Of a stretch of 64,000 nucleotides of DNA, positions 12,757 to 24,110 are shown one piece after another. The stretch comes from Caldilineaceae bacterium (GTDB lineage: Bacteria; Chloroflexota; Anaerolineae; Caldilineales; Caldilineaceae), in contig JAJEBF010000038.1 of NCBI GenBank assembly GCA_022824025.1, forward strand, positions 1 through 64,000, written 5' to 3'. The position numbers were made by a program, and so were the translations under genes. Below the pieces are notes generated by a model. It saw nothing but the letters and a program-made list of their open reading frames with translations, was not told where the DNA came from and searched no databases. Every line of letters begins with the position of its first letter. The stretch's first letter is position 1.

Positions 12757-13794
12757 CTAATCCTGGTAGAGGAAGCAACGGGCGCGATGGTCGGGTTCGG
12801 GCTCGAAGTCGAGGGGCGTCTTCAGTGCGCACAGGTCTTCGATGAAATGGGTGCAGCGCGGGTGGAAGCGGCAGCCTGAGGGCGGGTTGACCAGGCTGGG
12901 GGGTTCGCCGGGCGGCACGTCGCGAAAGACGCGCGCGTTTTCCGGGTCCGGGTCGGCGATGGCGGCGAGGAGTGCGCTGGTGTAGGGGTGGAGGGGGTTG
13001 CGGAGCAGGTCGTCCATCTGCGCCTGTTCGACGATTTCGCCGGCGTACATGACGAAGATACGCTCGGAGAAGTAGCGCACGGTGGAGAGATCGTGGGTGA
13101 TGTAGACGACGGCGAGGTTGTGGGAACGCTGGAGCCCCTGCAGGAGGCGAAGGATTTCGACGCGCACGGACATGTCGAGCATGGAGACGGGTTCGTCGGC
13201 GACGATCATGCGCGGGCGCAGGAGCATGGCGCGGGCGATGACGACGCGTTGCTGCTGGCCGCCGCTGAGCATGTGGGGAAAGCGGGGCAGGATGTCATCG
13301 ACAGGCGTGAGGCGGACCTCCTCCATGACCTCGTAGATGCGTTTTTGGCGGCCGGCCTCGTCCATTTGGCCGTGGATTTTGAGCGGTTCGCCGAGGATGC
13401 GGCGGATGTCCATGAAGGGCGGGAGGGCGCCGAAGGGGTCCTGCTGGACATAGCCGACCTGTGAGCGGTACCACTGCATCTCCTTCGAGTCAAGGGTACT
13501 GAGATCGCGGCCTTCGAAGATGACGGAGCCTTCGGTTGGCATATGCAGGCCCAGAATGGTCTTCATGAGGGTGGATTTGCCGCAGCCGCTTTCGCCGACG
13601 ATGGCGATGGCTTCGCCGGCGTGGAGGTCGAAGCTGACGTCGTCGACGGCGCGGACGGTGCCGGCGCGGCCGAAGCCCCAGCGCCTGAGCTCGAACCAGG
13701 TGCGCAGATTGCGCAGGGAGAGGAGGGGTTCGGTCTGGGCCGCGGAGCCGCTGGCGGGCCGGGCCGGCGCGGTTTCAGGGGTTGCCGTTGTCAT
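12757..13794 (-). CDS. Oligopeptide/dipeptide ABC transporter ATP-binding protein (OppF/DppF type)
   Basis: The 345-residue ATPase has Walker [10 protein letters not shown] (about 68-76), Q-loop VQQDPFGAL, signature LSGGQQQRV, Walker B MIVADEP, and the C-terminal oligopeptide-transporter region ending in PPSGCRFHPRCTHF. The HPRC cysteines may bind a cofactor as in other Opp ATPases. It is the last conserved gene of a minus-strand cluster beginning at 24110 and pairs with the ATPase at 13862. These are the only two ATPases for two permease pairs and two binding proteins. Confidence 0.93.
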   Translation of the reverse strand: MTTATPETAPARPASGSAAQTEPLLSLRNLRTWFELRRWGFGRAGTVRAVDDVSFDLHAGEAIAIVGESGCGKSTLMKTILGLHMPTEGSVIFEGRDLSTLDSKEMQWYRSQVGYVQQDPFGALPPFMDIRRILGEPLKIHGQMDEAGRQKRIYEVMEEVRLTPVDDILPRFPHMLSGGQQQRVVIARAMLLRPRMIVADEPVSMLDMSVRVEILRLLQGLQRSHNLAVVYITHDLSTVRYFSERIFVMYAGEIVEQAQMDDLLRNPLHPYTSALLAAIADPDPENARVFRDVPPGEPPSLVNPPSGCRFHPRCTHFIEDLCALKTPLDFEPEPDHRARCFLYQD

Positions 13795-13861
13795 CGCGGG
13801 CCTTTCTGCGGGCGGCGGATTTCCTTTGCGGGGGGGACAGCAAGTTTGTCGGCTGGATGCA

Positions 13862-14842
13862 TCACGGGGTGTCTCCGTTCTGATGGAGCCAGCATTTTAC
13901 ATGTTGGCGGCGGCCGGCCGGCGCCAGTTCAGGGTCGGTGTCGCAGAGCTCGAAGCGATGGTCGCAGCGGGGAGCGAAGCGACAGCCGGGGACCAGGTCC
14001 AGCAGGCTGGGCGGCTGGCCGCTGATGAAGTCGGGTTCCTCGACCTGGCGCAGTTTGGGGACGCTGGCCATCAGTTTCTGTGAGTAGGGATGGAGCGGTT
14101 CGACGAAGAACTGCTCGGCGTCGTTGAGCTCGACGATCTGGCCGGCGTACATGACGGCGGCGCGGTCGGCGAGTTCGCTGGAGGTGCCGATGTCATGGGT
14201 GATGAGGATGAAGCTGGTCCTGGTCTCCTGTTTGACCCTCTTCAGGACGTTCATGATGTTGGCCTGGGTGAGGACGTCGAGGGCGGACGTCGGCTCGTCG
14301 AGAATGATCAGGTCGGGGTCGGTGACCATGGCCATGGCGATGGCGACGCGCTGGCGCATGCCGCCGCTGAGCTCGAAGGCGTAGCGGTTGATGAAATCAG
14401 CGGGAACGCCGACATTCTGGAAGGCGACGGCGACGCGTTCGAGGGCTTCGCTGCGGCGGATTCCGTAGTGGGAGAGAAGGGGCTCGGCGACCTGGTCTCC
14501 CACCTTGAGCACAGGGTTGAGCGAATTCATGGCAGCCTGGGGCACGAGAGAAATCTGTACCCAGCGGACCTGCTGGCGGTACTCTTCGTCGCTGAGCTGC
14601 ATGACGTCCTGGCCGTTGAGTTTGACGCTGCCGGAGTAGGTGTGTACGTTGCGGGGCAGCATGCGCAGAATGGCCTTGGTGAGCGAGGTCTTGCCGCAGC
14701 CGGATTCGCCGAGGATGACCATGGCTTCATTGCGGCGCAGGTTGAGGCTGACGCTGTCGACGGCGTGCAGGACGCCCTGCTGCGTGCGGAAATAGAGGCG
14801 CAGGTCTTCGATCTGCAGGAGAGGCTGCTGGGATTGGGTCAT
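13862..14842 (-). CDS. Oligopeptide/dipeptide ABC transporter ATP-binding protein (OppD/DppD type)
   Basis: The 326-residue ATPase has Walker A GESGCGKT, signature LSGGMRQRV, Walker B LIILDEPTSALD, and the C-terminal VPGCRFAPRCDHRFE motif. The start ATG 14842 overlaps the permease stop as TAATG, indicating translational coupling; longer in-frame extensions upstream read through the permease and are not used. Forms a heterodimer with the OppF-type subunit encoded 67 nt downstream. Confidence 0.93.
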   Translation of the reverse strand: MTQSQQPLLQIEDLRLYFRTQQGVLHAVDSVSLNLRRNEAMVILGESGCGKTSLTKAILRMLPRNVHTYSGSVKLNGQDVMQLSDEEYRQQVRWVQISLVPQAAMNSLNPVLKVGDQVAEPLLSHYGIRRSEALERVAVAFQNVGVPADFINRYAFELSGGMRQRVAIAMAMVTDPDLIILDEPTSALDVLTQANIMNVLKRVKQETRTSFILITHDIGTSSELADRAAVMYAGQIVELNDAEQFFVEPLHPYSQKLMASVPKLRQVEEPDFISGQPPSLLDLVPGCRFAPRCDHRFELCDTDPELAPAGRRQHVKCWLHQNGDTP

Positions 14843-16203
14843 TACAGCTCTCTCAGTCTGGGGTTGAAGACTCTGTCCAGGGCGAAGCCCACCATGGCAA
14901 AGCCGATGCCGGAGATGAGCAGGAGCGCGGCGGGCTCGAGCACCCAATAGTAGTGCCCCTGGTAGAGGGCGTCATTGACGCGTGCGTCGCTTAGCACTTT
15001 GCCCCAGGTAGGCAGCAACGGGTCGCCCAGGTTGAGCACGGCGAGCGTAGCTTCCACAAAGACGAAAGAGGGGATGGCAACCACGAAGCCGGGCACGAGG
15101 GTGGGAATGATGCGCGGGATGAGATAGAGAAAGATGATGCGGAAGTTGCCGGCGCCGTAGGCGCGTGCGGCTTCGAAGTAAGGGTCCTCCTTGATCTGGA
15201 GGAAGATGGCGCGGCTGGTTTTTATGCCCGAGCTGAAGACGCTGAGGACAATGAGAGCGCCCAACATGACCCAGATGCTGCGGGAATAAAATATGCCGAT
15301 CATAATCAGGATTGGCAGAACGGGCAGGATGAGGTTTACCTCGGTGATGCGCTGAATTGTCGCGTCGACGATGCCGCCGAACCAGACCCCGATCGCGGCC
15401 ATAATCAGTGTGCTTATGGAGGTGCCGACGGCCGCCATCAGGCCGAAGGCGAGGGCGACGGGCATCCCCCACATGAGGGCAAGCGTCAGGTCGCGGCGCA
15501 GGTGATCGGTTCCGGCGAGGCCATAGACCTGGCCGTAGACGACCAGGCGGGCGTCAACATCGGCATCATCTTCGAACACGAGCCCGGCGGCGACGAGCTG
15601 GTAGGTACCCTTGAGCGGCCTGGGGTCGTCTTCGCTGGCGGCGGGATCAGCGAAGAGGCCGATTTCCGGTCTGACCCCGTCGAGGCGCCTTTCGAGTTTT
15701 TCTTCTTGCGAAAACCGGACGGTTACGGGTCCTTCGACGGTGACATCGGCGATGCGGATTTCGCGGCCGTCGGGTGTCAGCCAGGTGAGCGACACGAGGG
15801 GCCGTTTCTGTTCATGCTCCGACCTGAGGAAGAGGGAGATTTCCTGGGGAAACTCGTCGGCCGTAAAGTCGAACGTGAAGGTGGTGATGACGTCGGTGAT
15901 CTCTTCGGAGACTATCTCGCGCGTCTTCCGGACGGAGTCGACGTCGGTTTCGCCGGCGGGGCCCAGGATAATCGTCTCGGGCTGATTGACGCCGGGGAAC
16001 AGGTTCACCCATATGGGCATGGCCGTGCGCGGGTTTTCCAGCCAGACGCCTTCGCCTCCCCGCCAGAGGTTGACGGCTTCGCTGTAGGGAATGGCGATCA
16101 CGGTATAGATGGAAAAGAAGACCATGGCCGCGATGATGGCCAGGCCGGCGACGGCGGAAGGGTATTGTGATAGCGCGGCGAGCGTCCGTCTGATGGCCGT
16201 CAT
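14842..16203 (-). CDS. Peptide ABC transporter permease (DppC type) with large extracytoplasmic insertion
   Basis: The 453-residue permease is far longer than usual DppC proteins (about 280-300). TM1 is at about 20-40. The next conserved element, the GTDHLRRDLTLALMWG segment before TM2, only appears at about 231, leaving roughly 185 residues outside the membrane. The insert has beta-rich sequence (ITTFTFDFTADEFP, VSLTWLTPDGREIR). The remainder is typical, with an EAA loop at EAARAYGAGNFRIIFLYLIP. It overlaps the upstream permease by 4 nt (ATGA) and the downstream ATPase by 1 nt. The insert may contact the unusual binding protein encoded at 17434-20016; that is inference. Confidence 0.9.
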   Translation of the reverse strand: MTAIRRTLAALSQYPSAVAGLAIIAAMVFFSIYTVIAIPYSEAVNLWRGGEGVWLENPRTAMPIWVNLFPGVNQPETIILGPAGETDVDSVRKTREIVSEEITDVITTFTFDFTADEFPQEISLFLRSEHEQKRPLVSLTWLTPDGREIRIADVTVEGPVTVRFSQEEKLERRLDGVRPEIGLFADPAASEDDPRPLKGTYQLVAAGLVFEDDADVDARLVVYGQVYGLAGTDHLRRDLTLALMWGMPVALAFGLMAAVGTSISTLIMAAIGVWFGGIVDATIQRITEVNLILPVLPILIMIGIFYSRSIWVMLGALIVLSVFSSGIKTSRAIFLQIKEDPYFEAARAYGAGNFRIIFLYLIPRIIPTLVPGFVVAIPSFVFVEATLAVLNLGDPLLPTWGKVLSDARVNDALYQGHYYWVLEPAALLLISGIGFAMVGFALDRVFNPRLREL

Positions 16204-17342
16204 GACTGTCCTCCCGAGTTGCCGCCAACCTTGACGCGAGGGTCGATGAGGGCATAGACGATATCGAGGAAGAAGACAGTGATGCCAAGCAAATAGGCAT
16301 AGATGACAGTAGAGCCGACGATCACCGCGGTTTCGAAGATGTTGGCGGCCAGATAGAAGAGCCGGCCCAGGCCGGGCCAGTTGAAGATCGTTTCAAGCAC
16401 GATCGAACCGAACCAGAGGCCAATGATTGAAAGCGCCAGGCCGGTCACGATGGTGGGCATGGTCGGCCGCAAGATGTAGCGGCGCTCGATCACGCGGTCG
16501 GGCAGACCTTTGGCGCGGGCCATGTCGACATAGTCGGCGTTGGAAAAGATGAGGAAGAAGGTGCGCGAGCCGTAGATGCCGAGAAATATCGAGCTGAGAA
16601 ATGTGGCCGTGACGGGCAGAACCATGTGGTTGAGAACGCTGAGGGCGTAGCCGGTGGTTGTGTCCGGCGGGGGCGCGGAGACTAGCCCGCCGAATGGGAA
16701 CCAGCCCAAGAGGGCGGCAAAGAGCAGAATGAAGAAGAGGCCGTAGAACCAGCTGGGGGCCGCGGAAGTGGGGGCCAAGGCGACGATGACCCGGTCGATC
16801 AGGCTTCCGTAGTTGCGTGAAAGATAGAGGGAAACGAAGAGTTGCACAAAAAAGGACAGGAAGAAGGTGGTGGAGAAGAGAAGAATGGTGGCGGGCAGCC
16901 GCTCCAGTATGATGTTACGCACCTGACGCGAGCCGCTGTCGCTGGACATGTTATCAGCCCAGCCAAGGTTGAGGGTCATGGCCCCCAACAGAAAACGGAA
17001 GCTACGGAGGAGGAAGGGTTGGTCGAGCCCCATCCGTTTCTCCTGCAGAGCAACCAGTTTTTCTGCATGTTCGCGCCGTTCTTCGGCGGTCATGTTTTTG
17101 ATATCGGGATCGAACCCCAATGAGATTGCCACTTGCTCGCGAATATAGTTTCTGCGAATGTCATCGACATGGCCGCCCATATTGGCGATCAGGATGGTCA
17201 GATAGACGCCGATGAGCACGGTGACGAAGAGGGCAACCATACGAAGCCCGGTGTAGTGGACAACGCGGGCGAGCGTGCTTTGCGTCTGCTGACGTTCGCC
17301 GCTCTCGGCGCCGGGTTGGAGGGGCAGAGCCGCATCTGTCAT
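16200..17342 (-). CDS. Peptide ABC transporter permease (DppB type)
   Basis: The 380-residue permease has an N-terminal TM (VALFVTVLIGVYLTILIANM), an extracytoplasmic segment holding ERREHAEKLVALQEKRMGLDQPF, then five further TMs with the EAA-like loop ARAKGLPDRVIERRYILRPTMP. I start at ATG 17342 (MTDAALPLQ) because AAAGG sits about 8 nt before it; a TTG five codons upstream lacks this. Partner of the large DppC-type subunit, to which it is translationally coupled. Confidence 0.9.
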   Translation of the reverse strand: MTDAALPLQPGAESGERQQTQSTLARVVHYTGLRMVALFVTVLIGVYLTILIANMGGHVDDIRRNYIREQVAISLGFDPDIKNMTAEERREHAEKLVALQEKRMGLDQPFLLRSFRFLLGAMTLNLGWADNMSSDSGSRQVRNIILERLPATILLFSTTFFLSFFVQLFVSLYLSRNYGSLIDRVIVALAPTSAAPSWFYGLFFILLFAALLGWFPFGGLVSAPPPDTTTGYALSVLNHMVLPVTATFLSSIFLGIYGSRTFFLIFSNADYVDMARAKGLPDRVIERRYILRPTMPTIVTGLALSIIGLWFGSIVLETIFNWPGLGRLFYLAANIFETAVIVGSTVIYAYLLGITVFFLDIVYALIDPRVKVGGNSGGQS

Positions 17343-17378
17343 AGGGTGACCTTTCAAATGCAGGAGAGAGTGAAGAGA

Positions 17379-17410
17379 AGTGAGGAGAGAGGGTACCCTC
17401 TCTCCTCACT
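17379..17410 (-). repeat. Perfect 32-bp palindrome between binding-protein and permease genes
   Basis: AGTGAGGAGAGAGGGT is followed at once by its exact reverse complement. As RNA it makes a long GA/UC stem, 23 nt after the binding-protein stop and before the permease ribosome binding site. Such hairpins usually protect the 3' end of the abundant binding-protein message or cause partial termination. It is related to the elements at 54214 and 54650 (shared flank GGAGAGAGTGAAGAG). Confidence 0.9.
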
Positions 17411-17433
17411 CTCCCAGTCTCACTGCTTCAGGG

Positions 17434-20016
17434 TTAGTTCGTGGTTACGAACTCCAGGGACGAGAAGGTGGGGATGCTGACGCGCAGGGGCGCGACGGCC
17501 ACCTCCAGTTTGTTGGCGCCGGTTTCGAGGCCGGCGGTGTCTTCGGCGCTGAGGGTGATCTGCCAGAGACCATCCTCGACGGCTTCGGCGGCGCCGGTCA
17601 GGGCCAGTTCGCCGAGGGCGTCAAAGACGAGATATTTGACTTCGCCGATGTCGGCAGTGGCGTAGGCTTCGCCAGCAAAGTCGACGAATATTTCGAATGT
17701 CGCTTCATCGCCGGAGGCGACGCGGGCCGGGCCGTCGACCGAGACTTCGGCGATCATGGGTGTGTCAAAGCCTTCCCACTTGCTGGAGGCGTCGGGGAAG
17801 CTTTCGACACGGATCAATTGGACGGTCTTCTCGGTGGTGAAGGCCTTTTCGAGGTAGAAGGGCCCGTTGCCGACCCAGAAGTGCCCTTTATCTTCGTACC
17901 AGGCGCTGAGGTTTGCCCAGCGTGCATCCGCTTCATCGGCGCTGATATAGTCGCCGAGTGTGGACGCGTAGGGGATATGTCCATCGGCGGCGGCGGATTC
18001 GAGATGCCCTTGGAGGATCTCGATGCTCGGCCCGGCGATGTAGCTCATCCACTCGACTTCGTTGGCATCGGCCTTGTCGGACGAGAAGGCGAGGTCACCG
18101 GCGGCTTCGGCCAGGAGCCCAACCGCCAACGAATGCCAGGGTGTGCCGGGGAAGAAGTTGGCCACGTTTAGCTCGGCGTCCAGGGTGTACTGGTCACTGT
18201 AATACTCGATGACGAGCGGGCTCGTCTGCGCGATCCGGTAGCCCCGGAAGTGGCTCTGGAAGTTGTTCAGACTCGGCACCTGGGCCTCGTCGAAGACGGC
18301 GCTCTCTTCCTTGGCCAGGTCGAAGGTGGTGATCATGCCCAGGACGACGTCGGCGAGACTGATCGGGCTGCCGTCGTGCCAGGTCAGATCGGAGAGATCG
18401 CCCGGATAGTAGACGACACTCTTGAGGTTGGCTGTGAGGCCGTCGGGATGGAGGTCGCCGACGGTTACGAATTGCTGTTCAACGGCGTCCCAGTCGAGCC
18501 AGGCATCTTCGGGCACCTCGATCTGTTCGGCGAAGGTCAGGTCGACCCAGTCATGGGTGCTGCCGACGGGGAGCCCTTCCTTGACCGTAACCTCGGCTCT
18601 CTCGAAGCGCTGCGGCCACTGGAGCCCGGTGAAGGGGTCGGGCATTGCGCCCAGATCGGCGGTGGCGCGGATCAGCATGGTGTCGTAGATCCAGTTGGAG
18701 CCGGCTACGGGATTCCAGGGCTCAGGCAGCATGCTGGGCATGGCGATGGTCAGGGTACCACCCTCTTCGCCGGCGCGGCGCAGTGTGTAGGGCCAGAGGC
18801 GGGCGCCGTTGAGGCCGCCGGCCAGGTCTGTGGAGACGGAGACATCGTCTCTGTAGGCGGTGAAGCCAAGCTGGTTCACGAGCCAGACACGCACCGAGTC
18901 CTGCATGGAGAGGGCGAGGACATCGCCGAAGAGCTCGCGGCGTTCATCCATGGTGGTGAAGTCGCGCAGGTCCAGTTTTTCGGACATGGCATCGAATTCT
19001 TCGGACGGGGTGTAGGCCTGCCAGAGTGGGAAGGGCAGCCCGCGGTTGGTGTAGAAGAAGTCGAAGTTGCCGGCCTGGTCGCGGCTGATGGCGGTTGTGA
19101 TCCAGCCGCCGGTGTAGATGTGGAACATTCCTTCGTTGGGATCGGTGCCGATCCAGATCGGGGAGGCTTCCGAGGAGGTCTTGTAGTCACGGACGACGCT
19201 GAATCCAAGGTCTTCGAGCATAGTGGAAACGTAGTCGCCGATTTCCTTACGCTCATCCTCGGTGCGGATGAGGAAGATTACCTCGACCGGCTCGTCCTCG
19301 TAGTTCCAGACGCCGTCGACCAGTTCGGCGCCCAATGCTTCCATTTCCTCGTTGATGATCTCGGCCGCTTTGTCGGGATTGTGCGCGTACTCAAGCTCAA
19401 GCTGGCGCACGATGTCGACGAGGCGAGCGTAGTCCGGGAAGGCATTGGTGATGGCCATGTAGCGCGGTGAGGCGAGGCCGCCGTAAATTTCCTGGGAGAT
19501 GAAGTCGCGGTCAACCAGGTAGTTCATGGCCTCGCGGATGCGCGGCACGGCAAACGGGTTGAGTTTGCCGGTGCCGTCGAATACCGGTCCGGCGGGGTTG
19601 AAGGTCAGCTCTGCGTAGACGCCGAAGGAGTTGGAATATGTCAGGCTATCCATTCCCTGGACAGTGGCGTAGACCTCTGCGTCGCTGATGGAGAATGCGT
19701 AGGCGTCGATCTCTGCGAGATCCATGCGTGTGACGGCAGCGGCGGCTGAGGGTTCTTCGATGGCGATGACTTCGTCGACCCAGGCGCCGGTGCGCTCGCT
19801 CATGGCTGCGGGTTCTTCTTCCTCAGCCTCGGCCACTTCTTCGGTTTCTTCCTTTTCTTCTGCGGCCACTTCTTCGGTCTCTTCGGCGGCCTGTTCCTCC
19901 TGTGCGGGCGCGGCCGGCTCCTCGGCCATTTCCGTATCACCGCCGCCGCCGCAGGCGGCGAAGGCGAGCGCGGCGATCAGGAGGATCGCCAGGAAGGCAA
20001 AACGTTTCTTAGACAT
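17434..20016 (-). CDS. Peptide ABC substrate-binding lipoprotein with apparently permuted lobe order
   Basis: The 860-residue protein has a lipobox (LAFAAC, Cys22), an acidic Glu-rich linker (27-72) and SBP_bac_5 sequence in unusual order. Residues 78-414 look like the second half of the family: WVDEVIAIEEPSAAAAVTRM..AEIDA, then VPRIREAMNYLVDRDFISQEIYGG at 157-180. Residues 417-755 look like its first half: EGGTLTIAMP at 418-427, WHDGSPISLADV at 546-557, WVGNGPFYLE at about 714-723. A beta-sandwich-like C-terminal domain (about 758-850, SVDGPARVASGDEATFEI) follows. Normal members begin with the GGTLTIA strand. It lies upstream of the DppB/DppC/ATPase genes with a strong palindrome after its stop. 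Role as periplasmic-face peptide receptor is family knowledge; the permutation is my reading. Confidence 0.88.
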   Translation of the reverse strand: MSKKRFAFLAILLIAALAFAACGGGGDTEMAEEPAAPAQEEQAAEETEEVAAEEKEETEEVAEAEEEEPAAMSERTGAWVDEVIAIEEPSAAAAVTRMDLAEIDAYAFSISDAEVYATVQGMDSLTYSNSFGVYAELTFNPAGPVFDGTGKLNPFAVPRIREAMNYLVDRDFISQEIYGGLASPRYMAITNAFPDYARLVDIVRQLELEYAHNPDKAAEIINEEMEALGAELVDGVWNYEDEPVEVIFLIRTEDERKEIGDYVSTMLEDLGFSVVRDYKTSSEASPIWIGTDPNEGMFHIYTGGWITTAISRDQAGNFDFFYTNRGLPFPLWQAYTPSEEFDAMSEKLDLRDFTTMDERRELFGDVLALSMQDSVRVWLVNQLGFTAYRDDVSVSTDLAGGLNGARLWPYTLRRAGEEGGTLTIAMPSMLPEPWNPVAGSNWIYDTMLIRATADLGAMPDPFTGLQWPQRFERAEVTVKEGLPVGSTHDWVDLTFAEQIEVPEDAWLDWDAVEQQFVTVGDLHPDGLTANLKSVVYYPGDLSDLTWHDGSPISLADVVLGMITTFDLAKEESAVFDEAQVPSLNNFQSHFRGYRIAQTSPLVIEYYSDQYTLDAELNVANFFPGTPWHSLAVGLLAEAAGDLAFSSDKADANEVEWMSYIAGPSIEILQGHLESAAADGHIPYASTLGDYISADEADARWANLSAWYEDKGHFWVGNGPFYLEKAFTTEKTVQLIRVESFPDASSKWEGFDTPMIAEVSVDGPARVASGDEATFEIFVDFAGEAYATADIGEVKYLVFDALGELALTGAAEAVEDGLWQITLSAEDTAGLETGANKLEVAVAPLRVSIPTFSSLEFVTTN

Positions 20017-20115
20017 TCGCTTATCTCCTTTGTTGCGTACGTGCAGAATGTTTTCGGCAGCTGGCGCCCAGCCATTGGGTGGAGCTGGTCGGACCGACTG
20101 TGTGCGCCAAACTGT

Positions 20116-21144
20116 TTACCGTAAGTTTTTCATCATCGGGTCGAGCGCGTCGCGCAGACCGTCGCCGATGAGGTAGAGTGCCAGCACTGTAAGCGTGATC
20201 AGCAGGCCGGGGCCGACGAGCAGATGCAGCGCCACGAATGCGCCGGATTCCGGGTCACGAAGGAAAAGAAAGTTATTGGCCCTGTTGAGCATATTACCCC
20301 AAGTTGCCGTTGGCGGTTGTATGCCCAATCCCAAAAAACTGAGAGCGGATTCGACAAGGATGAGGATGCCAACATCGATGGCTGCGTTGACGATGATAAT
20401 TGGCAGGCTGTTGGGGATCACATGTTGGAGCATGATGCGGGCATTGCGCGTGCCGACGGAGCGGGCCGCGAGCACGAAATCCAGGGCGCGCACTTTGAAT
20501 ACATTTCCGCGGATGAGGCGGGCGGTGCCAAACCAGCCGAAGAGGCCAAGGAAGAGGGTCAGGGTGATGGGATTGGGCTTGAACATTGCAGTAACGATGA
20601 TGAGGAGATAGATTCCCGGGATGGACACAAAGGTATTGATAAACCACATAATGAAGTCGTCGACAACGCCGCCAAAGAAGCCGGCCGTTGTGCCGACGGT
20701 CACGCCCAGGATGAGAATCAGGATAGTGGCGGCAAAGGCGATGCCAAGGCTGACCCGGCCCCCGTAGAGGAGGCGCACGAACTGATCGCGGCCGAGCTGG
20801 TCGGTGCCCAGCCAGTGCGCGACGCCGCCGGCTTTTTCCAGGAGGAGAGGGGCGCGCAGTGGGTCCTGGCCGGCGCGCCACTGGATGTACGGCCCCAGAT
20901 AGGGTTGCTGGAAGGCGTTGTCGGGGTTGGTGTCGTTGGGTCCAATGCCGACAGCGCCGGCCACTACCGGCGCCAAGAGAGAGAGCGCGGCCATCGTTAC
21001 GAGAAAGCCCAGGGCGATAAGTGTAACGAGGTCGCGGCGCAGGGACTGGAGCGCCATGCTCCAGTAGGTGAGTGGTTTGCGCTGCAGCTGGGGTTCGGCG
21101 GCCAGGTCTGCGTGCGTCGAGCCGTGCGCTTGAGCAACGGTCAT
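20116..21144 (-). CDS. Peptide ABC transporter permease (DppC type)
   Basis: The 342-residue permease has TM1 at about 38-60, the LGTDQLGRDQFVRLLYGGRVSLGIA motif before TM2, and the EAA loop LAARSVGTRNARIMLQHVIPN. It ends in GDGLRDALDPMMKNLR, typical for DppC. It lies 22 nt downstream of its DppB-type partner and 99 nt upstream of the large binding-protein gene. No ATPase is encoded between the two, so this pair presumably uses the ATPases encoded at 12757-14842. Confidence 0.93.
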   Translation of the reverse strand: MTVAQAHGSTHADLAAEPQLQRKPLTYWSMALQSLRRDLVTLIALGFLVTMAALSLLAPVVAGAVGIGPNDTNPDNAFQQPYLGPYIQWRAGQDPLRAPLLLEKAGGVAHWLGTDQLGRDQFVRLLYGGRVSLGIAFAATILILILGVTVGTTAGFFGGVVDDFIMWFINTFVSIPGIYLLIIVTAMFKPNPITLTLFLGLFGWFGTARLIRGNVFKVRALDFVLAARSVGTRNARIMLQHVIPNSLPIIIVNAAIDVGILILVESALSFLGLGIQPPTATWGNMLNRANNFLFLRDPESGAFVALHLLVGPGLLITLTVLALYLIGDGLRDALDPMMKNLR

Positions 21145-21166
21145 GAGTATAGGCCTGTCCTCATTG

Positions 21167-22228
21167 CTAGAGCCGCACGCGCGGGTCGACGACGCCGTAC
21201 AGGATATCCGAAAGGAGGTTGCCCAGGATTGTCAGGAGCGCGAAGAACATCACTGCGCCCAGAACCGTCGGATAGTCCCGTTGCACGGCTGCGCTGAAGG
21301 TCATGCGCCCCATTCCGGGCCAGGAGAAGATGGTTTCGACAATTACGGCGCCGGTCAGGACGCCAAAGATGGTTGGGCCAAGAATCGTCATCAGCGGAAT
21401 GAGAGCATTGCGGAGGGCGTGGATGAACCAGACGCGGTTGGCGGGGACGCCTTTGGCCTTGGCCATGCGGATATAGTCGGTGCGGATTACTTCGAGCGTT
21501 TCGGTGCGCATGAAGCGGCTAATGCCGGCGATTCCCCCAAAGGCAAGAATGATGGTCGGCAGAATCAGATGTCTGACGCGGTCCAGCAGGTCGAACTCGT
21601 TGGTGAGGGAAACGGTGCGCCTGCCACCGGTGGGCAGCCAGCCAAGCACAACGCCGAAGAAAAAGATAAGCATCAGGCCGAACCAGAAGGAAGGGAGCGC
21701 ATTGCCAACAACGGCGAGCACGCGTACGGAGCCGTCGAACAGCGATGCCTGGCGGACGGCGCTGAGGACGCCCAGTGGCACGCCAAGAAGCAGTGAGACG
21801 AAGAGCGCGGAGACGCTGAGCTCAAAAGTCGCGGGCATACGCTCGACGAGGCGTTCCCAGACGGGCTGATTGGTGGCGATGCTGGTGCCAAGATTGCCCC
21901 GCAGGATGCCGCCGCCGTTATCGCAGAAGGTGGTATTGAGGGCGGCGGCGAAGGAACAGCGGGTATCCTGACGGTCGAACTCTGCGACAACGTCGCCGTT
22001 TCGCAGTGTAACACCGGTCAGCCAGCCGATATATTGCAGGGCCCAGGGTTGATCCAGCCCGAGTTGCCTGCGCAGGATTTCGCGTGTTTCCTGTGTAATG
22101 TTGGGATCGAAGGTCCGGATGAGGATGGGATCACCGGGAGAGTTGTAGACCAGCACGAAGCTGATGACGCTGACGCCAAGCAGGGTGGGGATTGCCTGGA
22201 GGAGGCGGCGAATTACGTAACGGGCCAT
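21167..22228 (-). CDS. Peptide ABC transporter permease (DppB type)
   Basis: The 353-residue permease starts with the classic MARYVIRRLLQAIPTLLGVSVISF. It carries an extracytoplasmic insert with two cysteines (RCSFAAALNTTFCDN) between TM1 and TM2, and the loop MAKAKGVPANRVWFIHALRNALIP. It ends DILYGVVDPRVRL. It forms a heterodimer with the DppC-type subunit encoded next. The two insert cysteines, 12 residues apart, could form a disulfide outside the membrane; this is inference. Confidence 0.93.
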   Translation of the reverse strand: MARYVIRRLLQAIPTLLGVSVISFVLVYNSPGDPILIRTFDPNITQETREILRRQLGLDQPWALQYIGWLTGVTLRNGDVVAEFDRQDTRCSFAAALNTTFCDNGGGILRGNLGTSIATNQPVWERLVERMPATFELSVSALFVSLLLGVPLGVLSAVRQASLFDGSVRVLAVVGNALPSFWFGLMLIFFFGVVLGWLPTGGRRTVSLTNEFDLLDRVRHLILPTIILAFGGIAGISRFMRTETLEVIRTDYIRMAKAKGVPANRVWFIHALRNALIPLMTILGPTIFGVLTGAVIVETIFSWPGMGRMTFSAAVQRDYPTVLGAVMFFALLTILGNLLSDILYGVVDPRVRL

Positions 22229-22394
22229 GGTCTGATACTGTCTTTCGATCCGCCTGGACGGACAGGCGGGCGCGTTAGAGATATAGGTGAGAATCCGCCA
22301 GCGCGCGCGGAGGGCGAGCGGTGGCGGATTCTTCAGATCTCGTACGCGGCCTGTTCGTCAGGCGCGAGATTCTTCCAGAAATCGTTGCGCCGGT

Positions 22395-24110
22395 CTACTG
22401 CGCGAGAGACCAGGTCTCAACGTTGTGGTAGAAGCTCCACGGGCCGGGTTCGGTGCCGTTGAACTTCTTTGAGTAGCCGGTATTGCCGACCGAGCCGGTC
22501 ACGAAGACATAGGGAATGTCGTCGTGAATGATCTTCTGAATTTCCTGGTAGAAGGGCGCGCGGTCCTCTGCGGCGCAACCGGGAACGCTGACAGCCTGTT
22601 CAAGGAGTTCGTCAATGCGTGCGTTTTGGTAGCTGACGAAGTTGAAGCCGCTGCCGGGTGTGTCGAACTTGGAGTGCCAGAAGGAGTCATCGTTGGGGTC
22701 GGTGCCGAGACCGGTCCAGCCGATGATGACCATGTCGAATGTCTGGCCGAGCAGTTCGCCGACGAGCGTGCCGAACTCGATGGCTTCGAACTGAATGTCG
22801 AAACCAATGCTGTTGAGCTGGTCCTGCACCAGGGCGCCGAGGTCTTCACGTGTGGTATTGCCGGCGTTGGTTTGCAGGCGGATGGTGAGGGAGGCGCCGG
22901 CTTCGGCGGTGGCGCAGCCGTTGCACTCGCGCACGCCGTCGCCGTCGCCGTCGGTCCAGCCGGCGTCATCCAGGATTTGCGCGGCGCGGTCGGTGTCAAA
23001 GGCGTAGGGTTCGAGTGAAGGGTCGTGGGCCCAGCCGACGGCGGGCAGAACATTGGCGGCGATCTGGTAGCCCTGGCCCAGATAGACATTTTCGATAATT
23101 GTATCGTAATCGAGGGCGTGGGCGATCGCCTGCCGCACAGCCAGATCGCTCAGAATCGGATGGGGATCCTGCTCGACGAGGTTGCCATCCTCGTCCTGGC
23201 CGGCCTGGGGGTTCTCGGGGTTGGCCTGATTGAGGCCGATGTAGCTGTAACCGTCGTCCTGGAACTTGTGCAGGTTCAGGTCGGGGTTGAGCTGGACAGT
23301 GGTCAGCTGTTCGGGCTGCACGCCGATGAGGTCGAGCTCACCGGTCTGCAGCTGCGCGAGGCGTGCGCCGGCGTCGGGGACGATCTTATAGATCCAACCG
23401 TCCATGTTGGGCGCGCCCTTCCAGTAGGTGTCGTTTCGCAGAACGGTTGCGTTATCGTCGCGGATCCATTCGTTGAAGATAAAGGGGCCGGCGCTGACGG
23501 CTGGCTCCTCGTTGAGGGGGCTGTCCATGACGTCGCTGAAATCTTCGGCGTAGAGGTGGCTTGGCAGCCAGCCGAGGCCGAGGTTATTAAGGGCATCGCA
23601 TTTCACTTCCTCGTACGTGACCTGAATGGTCAAGGGGTCGAGGACGTCGATGCTCGCGATGTTGTCGAGGTTTGCCTTGCGCGGGGTTTCGACGAGATCG
23701 CTGGCGATGGCGTCATAGGTGAATTTGAAGTCGTCGGCTGTGACCTGCTCGCCGTCCGACCACATGACGCCGTCCTGGAGGTGGAAGGTCCAGATGAGTC
23801 CGTCCTCAGAGACATCCCAGCTTTCGGCCATCTCGGTAGGGACGATGGCGCCGCTGAAAGGATCCTGGCCGAGGAGGCTGGGGAAGAACCAGCCGAGCAC
23901 GTCGAAGCTGGCGCTGTCGGAGGCGAGGATGGGATTGAGAATGGTTGCGTCGGCGCTGGAGCCTTCTACCCAGACGCCGCCCTGGACCGCGGCATCAGAG
24001 GCCGGGGCTTCCAAGGCTGTCTCGGCGACGGGAACGGGTTGAGGGCAGGCCGCCAGGAGCAGTGCAGAGACGAGAAGCGCTGCCAGGATAGAAATTTTTC
24101 TGTTTTTCAT
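22395..24110 (-). CDS. Peptide ABC substrate-binding lipoprotein (SBP_bac_5), normal lobe order
   Basis: The 571-residue protein has a lipoprotein signal (LLVSALLLAAC, Cys at about 22) and the normal order of the family: GVWVEGSSADATILNPILAS near the N-terminus, MWSDGEQVTADDFKFTYDAI, then LSDLAVRQAIAHALDYDTIIENVYLG. It carries an EF-hand-like loop DGDGDGVREC with paired cysteines (ECNGC). GGAGG lies about 8 nt before ATG 24110. First gene of the minus-strand peptide ABC cluster. Confidence 0.93.
   Translation of the reverse strand: MKNRKISILAALLVSALLLAACPQPVPVAETALEAPASDAAVQGGVWVEGSSADATILNPILASDSASFDVLGWFFPSLLGQDPFSGAIVPTEMAESWDVSEDGLIWTFHLQDGVMWSDGEQVTADDFKFTYDAIASDLVETPRKANLDNIASIDVLDPLTIQVTYEEVKCDALNNLGLGWLPSHLYAEDFSDVMDSPLNEEPAVSAGPFIFNEWIRDDNATVLRNDTYWKGAPNMDGWIYKIVPDAGARLAQLQTGELDLIGVQPEQLTTVQLNPDLNLHKFQDDGYSYIGLNQANPENPQAGQDEDGNLVEQDPHPILSDLAVRQAIAHALDYDTIIENVYLGQGYQIAANVLPAVGWAHDPSLEPYAFDTDRAAQILDDAGWTDGDGDGVRECNGCATAEAGASLTIRLQTNAGNTTREDLGALVQDQLNSIGFDIQFEAIEFGTLVGELLGQTFDMVIIGWTGLGTDPNDDSFWHSKFDTPGSGFNFVSYQNARIDELLEQAVSVPGCAAEDRAPFYQEIQKIIHDDIPYVFVTGSVGNTGYSKKFNGTEPGPWSFYHNVETWSLAQ

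Follow-up and report, generated by a model that had tools for sequence, protein, structure and literature searches.

A very probable circular permutant of the OppA fold in a Dpp/Opp-type ABC importer operon of Caldilineaceae

The receptor gene and its operon

The window analysed here, a stretch of 64,000 nucleotides from a Caldilineaceae bacterium, contains at 17434..20016 of the minus strand an open reading frame of 860 amino acids (P0001), defined by the ORF itself and by its Pfam and half-profile matches; all motifs quoted in the original prediction are found at the residues given for them. The protein starts with a lipoprotein signal peptide (19951..20016, minus strand), recognized in the sequence by the lipobox FAAC (Cys22), and continues with a Glu/Ala-rich low-complexity linker, likewise assigned from sequence (about residues 23-71; 19804..19950, minus strand). 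The linker is followed by segment A, comprising parts A1 and A2 (residues 72-415; 18772..19803), which corresponds to the C-terminal half of ordinary OppA/DppA proteins, by segment B (about residues 416-753; 17758..18771), corresponding to the N-terminal half of ordinary OppA-like proteins, and by a C-terminal Ig-like beta-sandwich (residues 754-860; 17437..17757), all on the minus strand, the order thus being A1-A2-B-Ig. The C-lobe motifs come first (WVDEV at 79, AEIDA at 101, VPRIREAMNYLVDRD at 157, and also NPFAVPRIREAMNYLVDRD), the N-lobe motifs come second (GGTLTIAMP at 419, WHDGSPISLADV at 546, GNGPFYL at 716), and the beta-sandwich closes the chain. An acidic linker in front and a beta-sandwich-like domain behind had both been predicted, and the predicted start of the N-lobe part, residue 418, is off by two residues at most. 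The lipobox is kept in most group 1 relatives; the composition and length of the acidic linker differ between relatives.

Downstream of the receptor gene lie the genes of its partner permeases and of two ATPases, all on the minus strand. Permease B (16200..17357) is of the DppB/OppB type, with a Pfam BPD_transp_1 match and Opp4B as the best NCBIfam match, the latter under its cut-off. Permease C (14842..16203) matches BPD_transp_1 at residues 267-451 only, and ahead of this permease domain it carries a large insert of approximately 190 residues (residues 41-237; 15493..16083) that is located, by position, between TM1 and TM2. ATPase D (13862..14842; ABC_tran and oligo_HPY) is taken to start at the in-frame ATG of MTQSQQ, and ATPase F (12757..13794) was recognized by its phmmer similarity to D. 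Thus, with a lipobox and B-C-D-F downstream, the gene has the features of a Dpp/Opp receptor, that is, an exported or lipid-anchored protein whose gene accompanies those of two permeases and two ATPases.

On the upstream side there is a second, normal set on the same strand, comprising a permease C without the insert (20116..21144; Pfam), a permease B (21167..22228; Pfam and comparison of Caldilineaceae loci), and an SBP of ordinary lobe order (22395..24110; Pfam match at residues 93-474 against profile positions 5-355). In 13 of the 15 Caldilineaceae loci, a normal-order SBP together with B and C genes of its own, including this permease C, is found directly upstream. The whole region 12757-24110 looks like a single operon, in which the receptors, the permeases and D are conserved in 13 of 15 loci. 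Since no ATPase gene was seen in the window between the upstream set and the D/F pair, the ordinary and the permuted receptor-permease sets probably share one pair of ATPases.

The order of the two halves

The Pfam profile SBP_bac_5 (PF00496) matches the whole protein with 75.7 bits (cut-off 32.4; E 4.8e-21), and the best stretch places profile positions 148-354 on residues 80-313, with the N-lobe part located downstream in the chain. Hence there is no single pass through the profile from the N-lobe to the C-lobe. As this order, which defines the family, was tested and is not the one seen, the receptor should be kept apart from the ordinary SBP_bac_5 members. It shares with SBP_bac_5/cluster C proteins (DppA, OppA, AppA) the middle and C-terminal motifs in segment A, a match above the Pfam cut-off, the lipoprotein nature and the BCDF operon, but differs from them by the swapped halves and by the extra C-terminal Ig-like domain.

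A search with the single sequence yielded one clear solved relative, 7fi3, an archaeal OppA-like protein that we presume to be from Thermococcus kodakarensis and that was deposited as an ABC-type dipeptide/oligopeptide transport system. It was matched in two swapped stretches (query 545-726 on chain 106-292; query 151-314 on chain 401-575), and when the halves were rewritten in the normal order, the same search produced one collinear stretch, 7fi3 106-575. We then used half-profiles for segments A and B built from 21 diverse relatives. The segment A profile (residues 72-415) matches 7fi3 323-603 (E 2.6e-45) and also the C-lobes of AppA (212-476), DppA (209-343), NikA and others. The segment B profile (416-755) matches 7fi3 29-308 (E 1.9e-30); outside 7fi3 it has short matches only, e.g. 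to 5isu, and is far from ordinary bacterial SBPs. Thus 7fi3 is the nearest solved relative of both halves and has motifs in common with them, and homology to it extends over both; the two ranges abut without overlap, in swapped order, as 7fi3 itself has the normal lobe order (B then A), N-lobe followed by C-lobe, and the window receptor does not. Since the two half-profiles, used independently, lead to one nearest solved structure, each at the opposite place, the order is far from what would be expected by chance.

The same matches bear on a chimera, in which an N-lobe-like domain from another gene would have been placed behind the C-lobe of one SBP, the likeness to a permuted OppA being convergent. 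Segment B has indeed diverged from ordinary SBPs much more than segment A, and a similar doubt was raised for the permuted binding protein TpMglB-2 (PMC4990184). However, the two halves have one and the same nearest solved protein, in abutting, non-overlapping ranges and with highly significant E-values, and the re-ordered query aligns across the junction; hence we regard the chimera as very unlikely.

The alignment across the junction comes from a profile comparison with a template of 30 ordinary SBPs from the same genome. The natural order scored 197.9 over 274 columns, and the re-ordered one, 251.8 over 303 columns, with the alignment running through the junction: the last template column covered by segment B is 202-203, and the first one covered by segment A is 204. 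When the artificial cut point was scanned, the score had a plateau at its maximum for cuts at about 400-530 and was lower elsewhere. This plateau and the gain in the score upon re-ordering argue against a simple two-domain reading, where residues 72-415 would form a complete stand-alone domain followed by an unrelated second one, with no permutation at all. Two Bacillota lipoproteins do carry most of the C-lobe alone, but the portion of the SBP fold preceding the strand normally written 'PYiDeV' is missing from segment A and is supplied by segment B (7fi3 29-308); moreover, A and B are found together in all 68 bacterial relatives of the tree, which had been chosen for holding both. We therefore consider a stand-alone domain extremely unlikely: residues 72-415 make up one half of the fold, and no profile search put the halves in the normal order.

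We conclude that the window protein is a circularly permuted OppA-fold surface receptor of a Dpp/Opp-type ABC importer, with 7fi3 as the closest solved protein, and assign to this reading a probability of about 0.9. The central claim of the original prediction, a circularly permuted SBP_bac_5 receptor, thus holds in both the profile-to-sequence and the profile-to-profile tests, and it is further supported by over 60 homologous proteins that share this order and were revealed by the proposed search. In the permutant, the old C-terminus and the old N-terminus are joined by the short link LWPYTLRRA-GEEGGTLTIAMP, and the new chain ends are situated in the loop just ahead of the 'PYiDeV' strand.

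The original prediction had also suggested a duplicated junction, with WVDEVIAIEE near residue 79 and FDTPMIAEVSV near 750 aligning to the same conserved strand. This part was rejected, both by the profile comparison, where residues 735-790 matched neither the template strand nor residues 60-125, and by the boundary of the Ig-like domain. In the structure model the well-defined Ig-like domain begins at about residue 754, the fold matches begin there too, and a branch of relatives without this domain ends at the same boundary, about residue 753. Given this domain start and the absence of a profile match, FDTPMIAEVSV (750-760) belongs to the Ig-like domain as its first strand and is not a duplicate. 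The domain has pLDDT mostly of 64-90 over model residues 691-789, with one dip to 43, and its PDB matches reach Z 11.6 and rmsd 2.2 over 91 residues. It is the best-defined large part of the AlphaFold2 model, which was poor overall both with a single sequence (pLDDT 34.7) and with an 18-row alignment (mean pLDDT 43.6); in fold searches with the whole latter model, the matches were to the Ig-like domain, apart from a single weak one to OppA of M. tuberculosis (8j5q).

Relatives and second-site permutants

In the genome of the window there are 45 SBP_bac_5 matches, 43 in the normal order and two permuted, and both permuted genes match the profile only at positions 146/148-356. The other permuted gene, on contig 26, shares 32% identity with the one in the window and encodes no lipobox; its product terminates in an acidic linker plus a membrane helix. 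Orthologues with 79-99% identity occur in 15 Caldilineaceae assemblies, two of them chromosome-scale. One could suspect an artefact of assembly or annotation, for instance a collapse of tandem genes, because some relatives do occur as tandem copies (L068, L075), but the same order is seen in all 15 of these assemblies, in other families and in Bacillota, and the full-length matches have no internal stops. For the A1-A2-B form this recurrence refutes an artefact, whose probability is practically negligible.

A permuted relative is present in 38 of the 400 genomes of the Chloroflexota sample and in 14 of the 299 genomes from the phylum of a Clostridiaceae MAG (Bacillota). Mapping of domains in the fetched loci gave 64 distinct A1-A2-B proteins from both phyla for the tree, four proteins of the order A2-B-A1 and one more cut by the contig end; the sole outgroup in the normal order was 7fi3, and none of the bacterial relatives used in the tree had this order. 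The search of Chloroflexota with the re-ordered sequence likewise found no normal-order relatives, only permuted ones, each in pieces. No relatives were found in viral contigs or, with the window protein as query, in plasmids; the plasmid matches of a group 2 relative were all weak, over 30-44% of the query. In the loci examined in Chloroflexota and Bacillota the permuted relatives are mostly located in SBP-B-C-D-F operons, and this gene order is shared by Anaerolineales, by Clostridiaceae and by the distant group 2. The family is widespread and apparently undescribed.

Two deviating types were seen among the relatives. L050 (the same gene as L073:5512-8406) and L155 (G168, G343) have an insertion of approximately 80 residues within segment B. 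The Bacillota lipoproteins mentioned above (L145:2757-4082, L146:5875-7230) carry the C-lobe fragment (A positions 62-308) with unrelated N-terminal domains, and there are no transporter genes adjacent to them.

Natural circular permutants among binding proteins have rarely been reported. One is TpMglB-2 (Tp0684) of Treponema pallidum, described as a 'Type Ic' glucose-binding protein of an ABC importer, with comments on its tethering; it is a sugar-binding protein of Type I/cluster B, in which part of the N-lobe is permuted, and the available part of the description mentions no second cut (PMC4990184). Judging by sequence, the window receptor is not of this type, as searches with it give SBP_bac_5/cluster C relatives only. 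No report of a permuted SBP_bac_5 protein was found in the open literature, although subscription papers may hold one. Hence, judging from the open literature, circular permutation is known in a binding protein of another class and appears to be new for the SBP_bac_5 class. Profile-based annotation catches only part of the permuted receptors and likely assigns their lobes wrongly.

The A2-B-A1 order is represented by five genes in four genomes. The protein L143:4858-7125 (G393:C19) from the Chloroflexota family f53 is a lipoprotein comprising A2 (profile positions 170-341), B (5-342) and A1 (5-163); the other members (L157, L158, L160 and the partial L164) are 38-46% identical to it. The second cut site is the C-lobe loop VDGxWxYxGEP. 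Four of the five genes (L143, L157, L158, L164) adjoin B-C-D-F or the part of it present on the contig, and both forms coexist in single genomes, e.g. G393 and G725. In the tree of re-ordered sequences (68 bacterial proteins and the outgroup 7fi3) the A2-B-A1 proteins are nested among those of the A1-A2-B order, where well-supported branches force at least three places for them, and the trees built from A1, A2 or B alone are in agreement, with two to three forced changes; all these trees are quick ones, with support by SH-aLRT only. No remnants of a deleted duplicate were found beside L143. A further cut in a second loop within family f53 produced the A2-B-A1 receptors, possibly more than once; judging by the sequences, either the second cuts were repeated, or there could have been one cut followed by reversions or recombination between paralogues. 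With 7fi3 in the normal order, tandem copies, the first permutant, and second-site permutants in single genomes, the family comprises nearly every state needed to test permutation by duplication.

The permease insert, anchoring and function

In the 400-genome Chloroflexota draw, the receptor was found in 38 genomes and the DppC insert in 40, the insert being present in all 38 receptor-bearing ones. Of the two extra genomes, G128 has a doubtful match (E 2.8e-4), and G106, a one-contig genome, has a B-C-D-F operon of the permuted-receptor type (L141) with no neighbouring receptor gene. Orphan ORFs of approximately 870-980 residues (L133-L140), also without adjacent receptor genes, carry the DppC insert and are similar to the C permease; some of them start with a DppB-like sequence and are apparently fused B-C permeases.

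If the protein is a true permutant whose permutation is functionally neutral, the insert would accompany it simply as part of a jointly inherited operon. Operons are indeed inherited together, and in Caldilineaceae SBPs of the normal and of the permuted order occur in one operon with an apparently single D/F ATPase pair; on the other hand, the receptor and the insert are paired in 38 of 38 genomes, which is still compatible with neutrality, and G106 retains the permease without an adjacent receptor. We give neutrality a chance somewhat short of even. Alternatively, and only tentatively, the chain ends may be evolutionarily mobile: one permutation would have preceded the spread through Chloroflexota and Bacillota, the second loop would have been repeatedly and independently re-permuted in one Chloroflexota lineage, each form would work in its BCDF operon, and the DppC insert would dock the relocated ends.

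Returning to the permutant as such, it likely arose when an ancestral OppA gene was duplicated, the copies were fused and the product was trimmed. The chain presumably still folds into an ordinary two-lobed trap, which would bind a peptide-like ligand outside the membrane, dock on DppBC and hand the ligand over. The receptor could be anchored by the N-terminal lipid or else by a C-terminal Ig-plus-membrane helix, and, as both new ends are situated at one loop, either anchor would hold it at the same place. The membrane tether might also be placed at a different face of the receptor, as the original prediction suggested. Some relatives have an N-terminal lipid as the anchor, others a C-terminal helix, and still others no obvious anchor, and hence the lobe architecture is separable from the tether site.

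As far as sequence data allow us to judge, the protein most likely works as an ordinary uptake receptor, and its ligand is probably a peptide, given its kinship and the metzincin-type peptidase domain of one relative. This relative, L074:4977-8204 (G393:C37), is a permuted receptor with an N-terminal matrixin-like metallopeptidase (Peptidase_M10, E 8e-6; HEIGHTLGLDD), with no permease genes nearby. Directly upstream of the group 2 receptors there is a gene of a secreted BNR-repeat protein (L076:5773-8154, L067:3893-6160, L070:8906-11056), with BNR_2 matches ranging from weak to clear; the substrates of this group could therefore differ, possibly being glycans instead of peptides.
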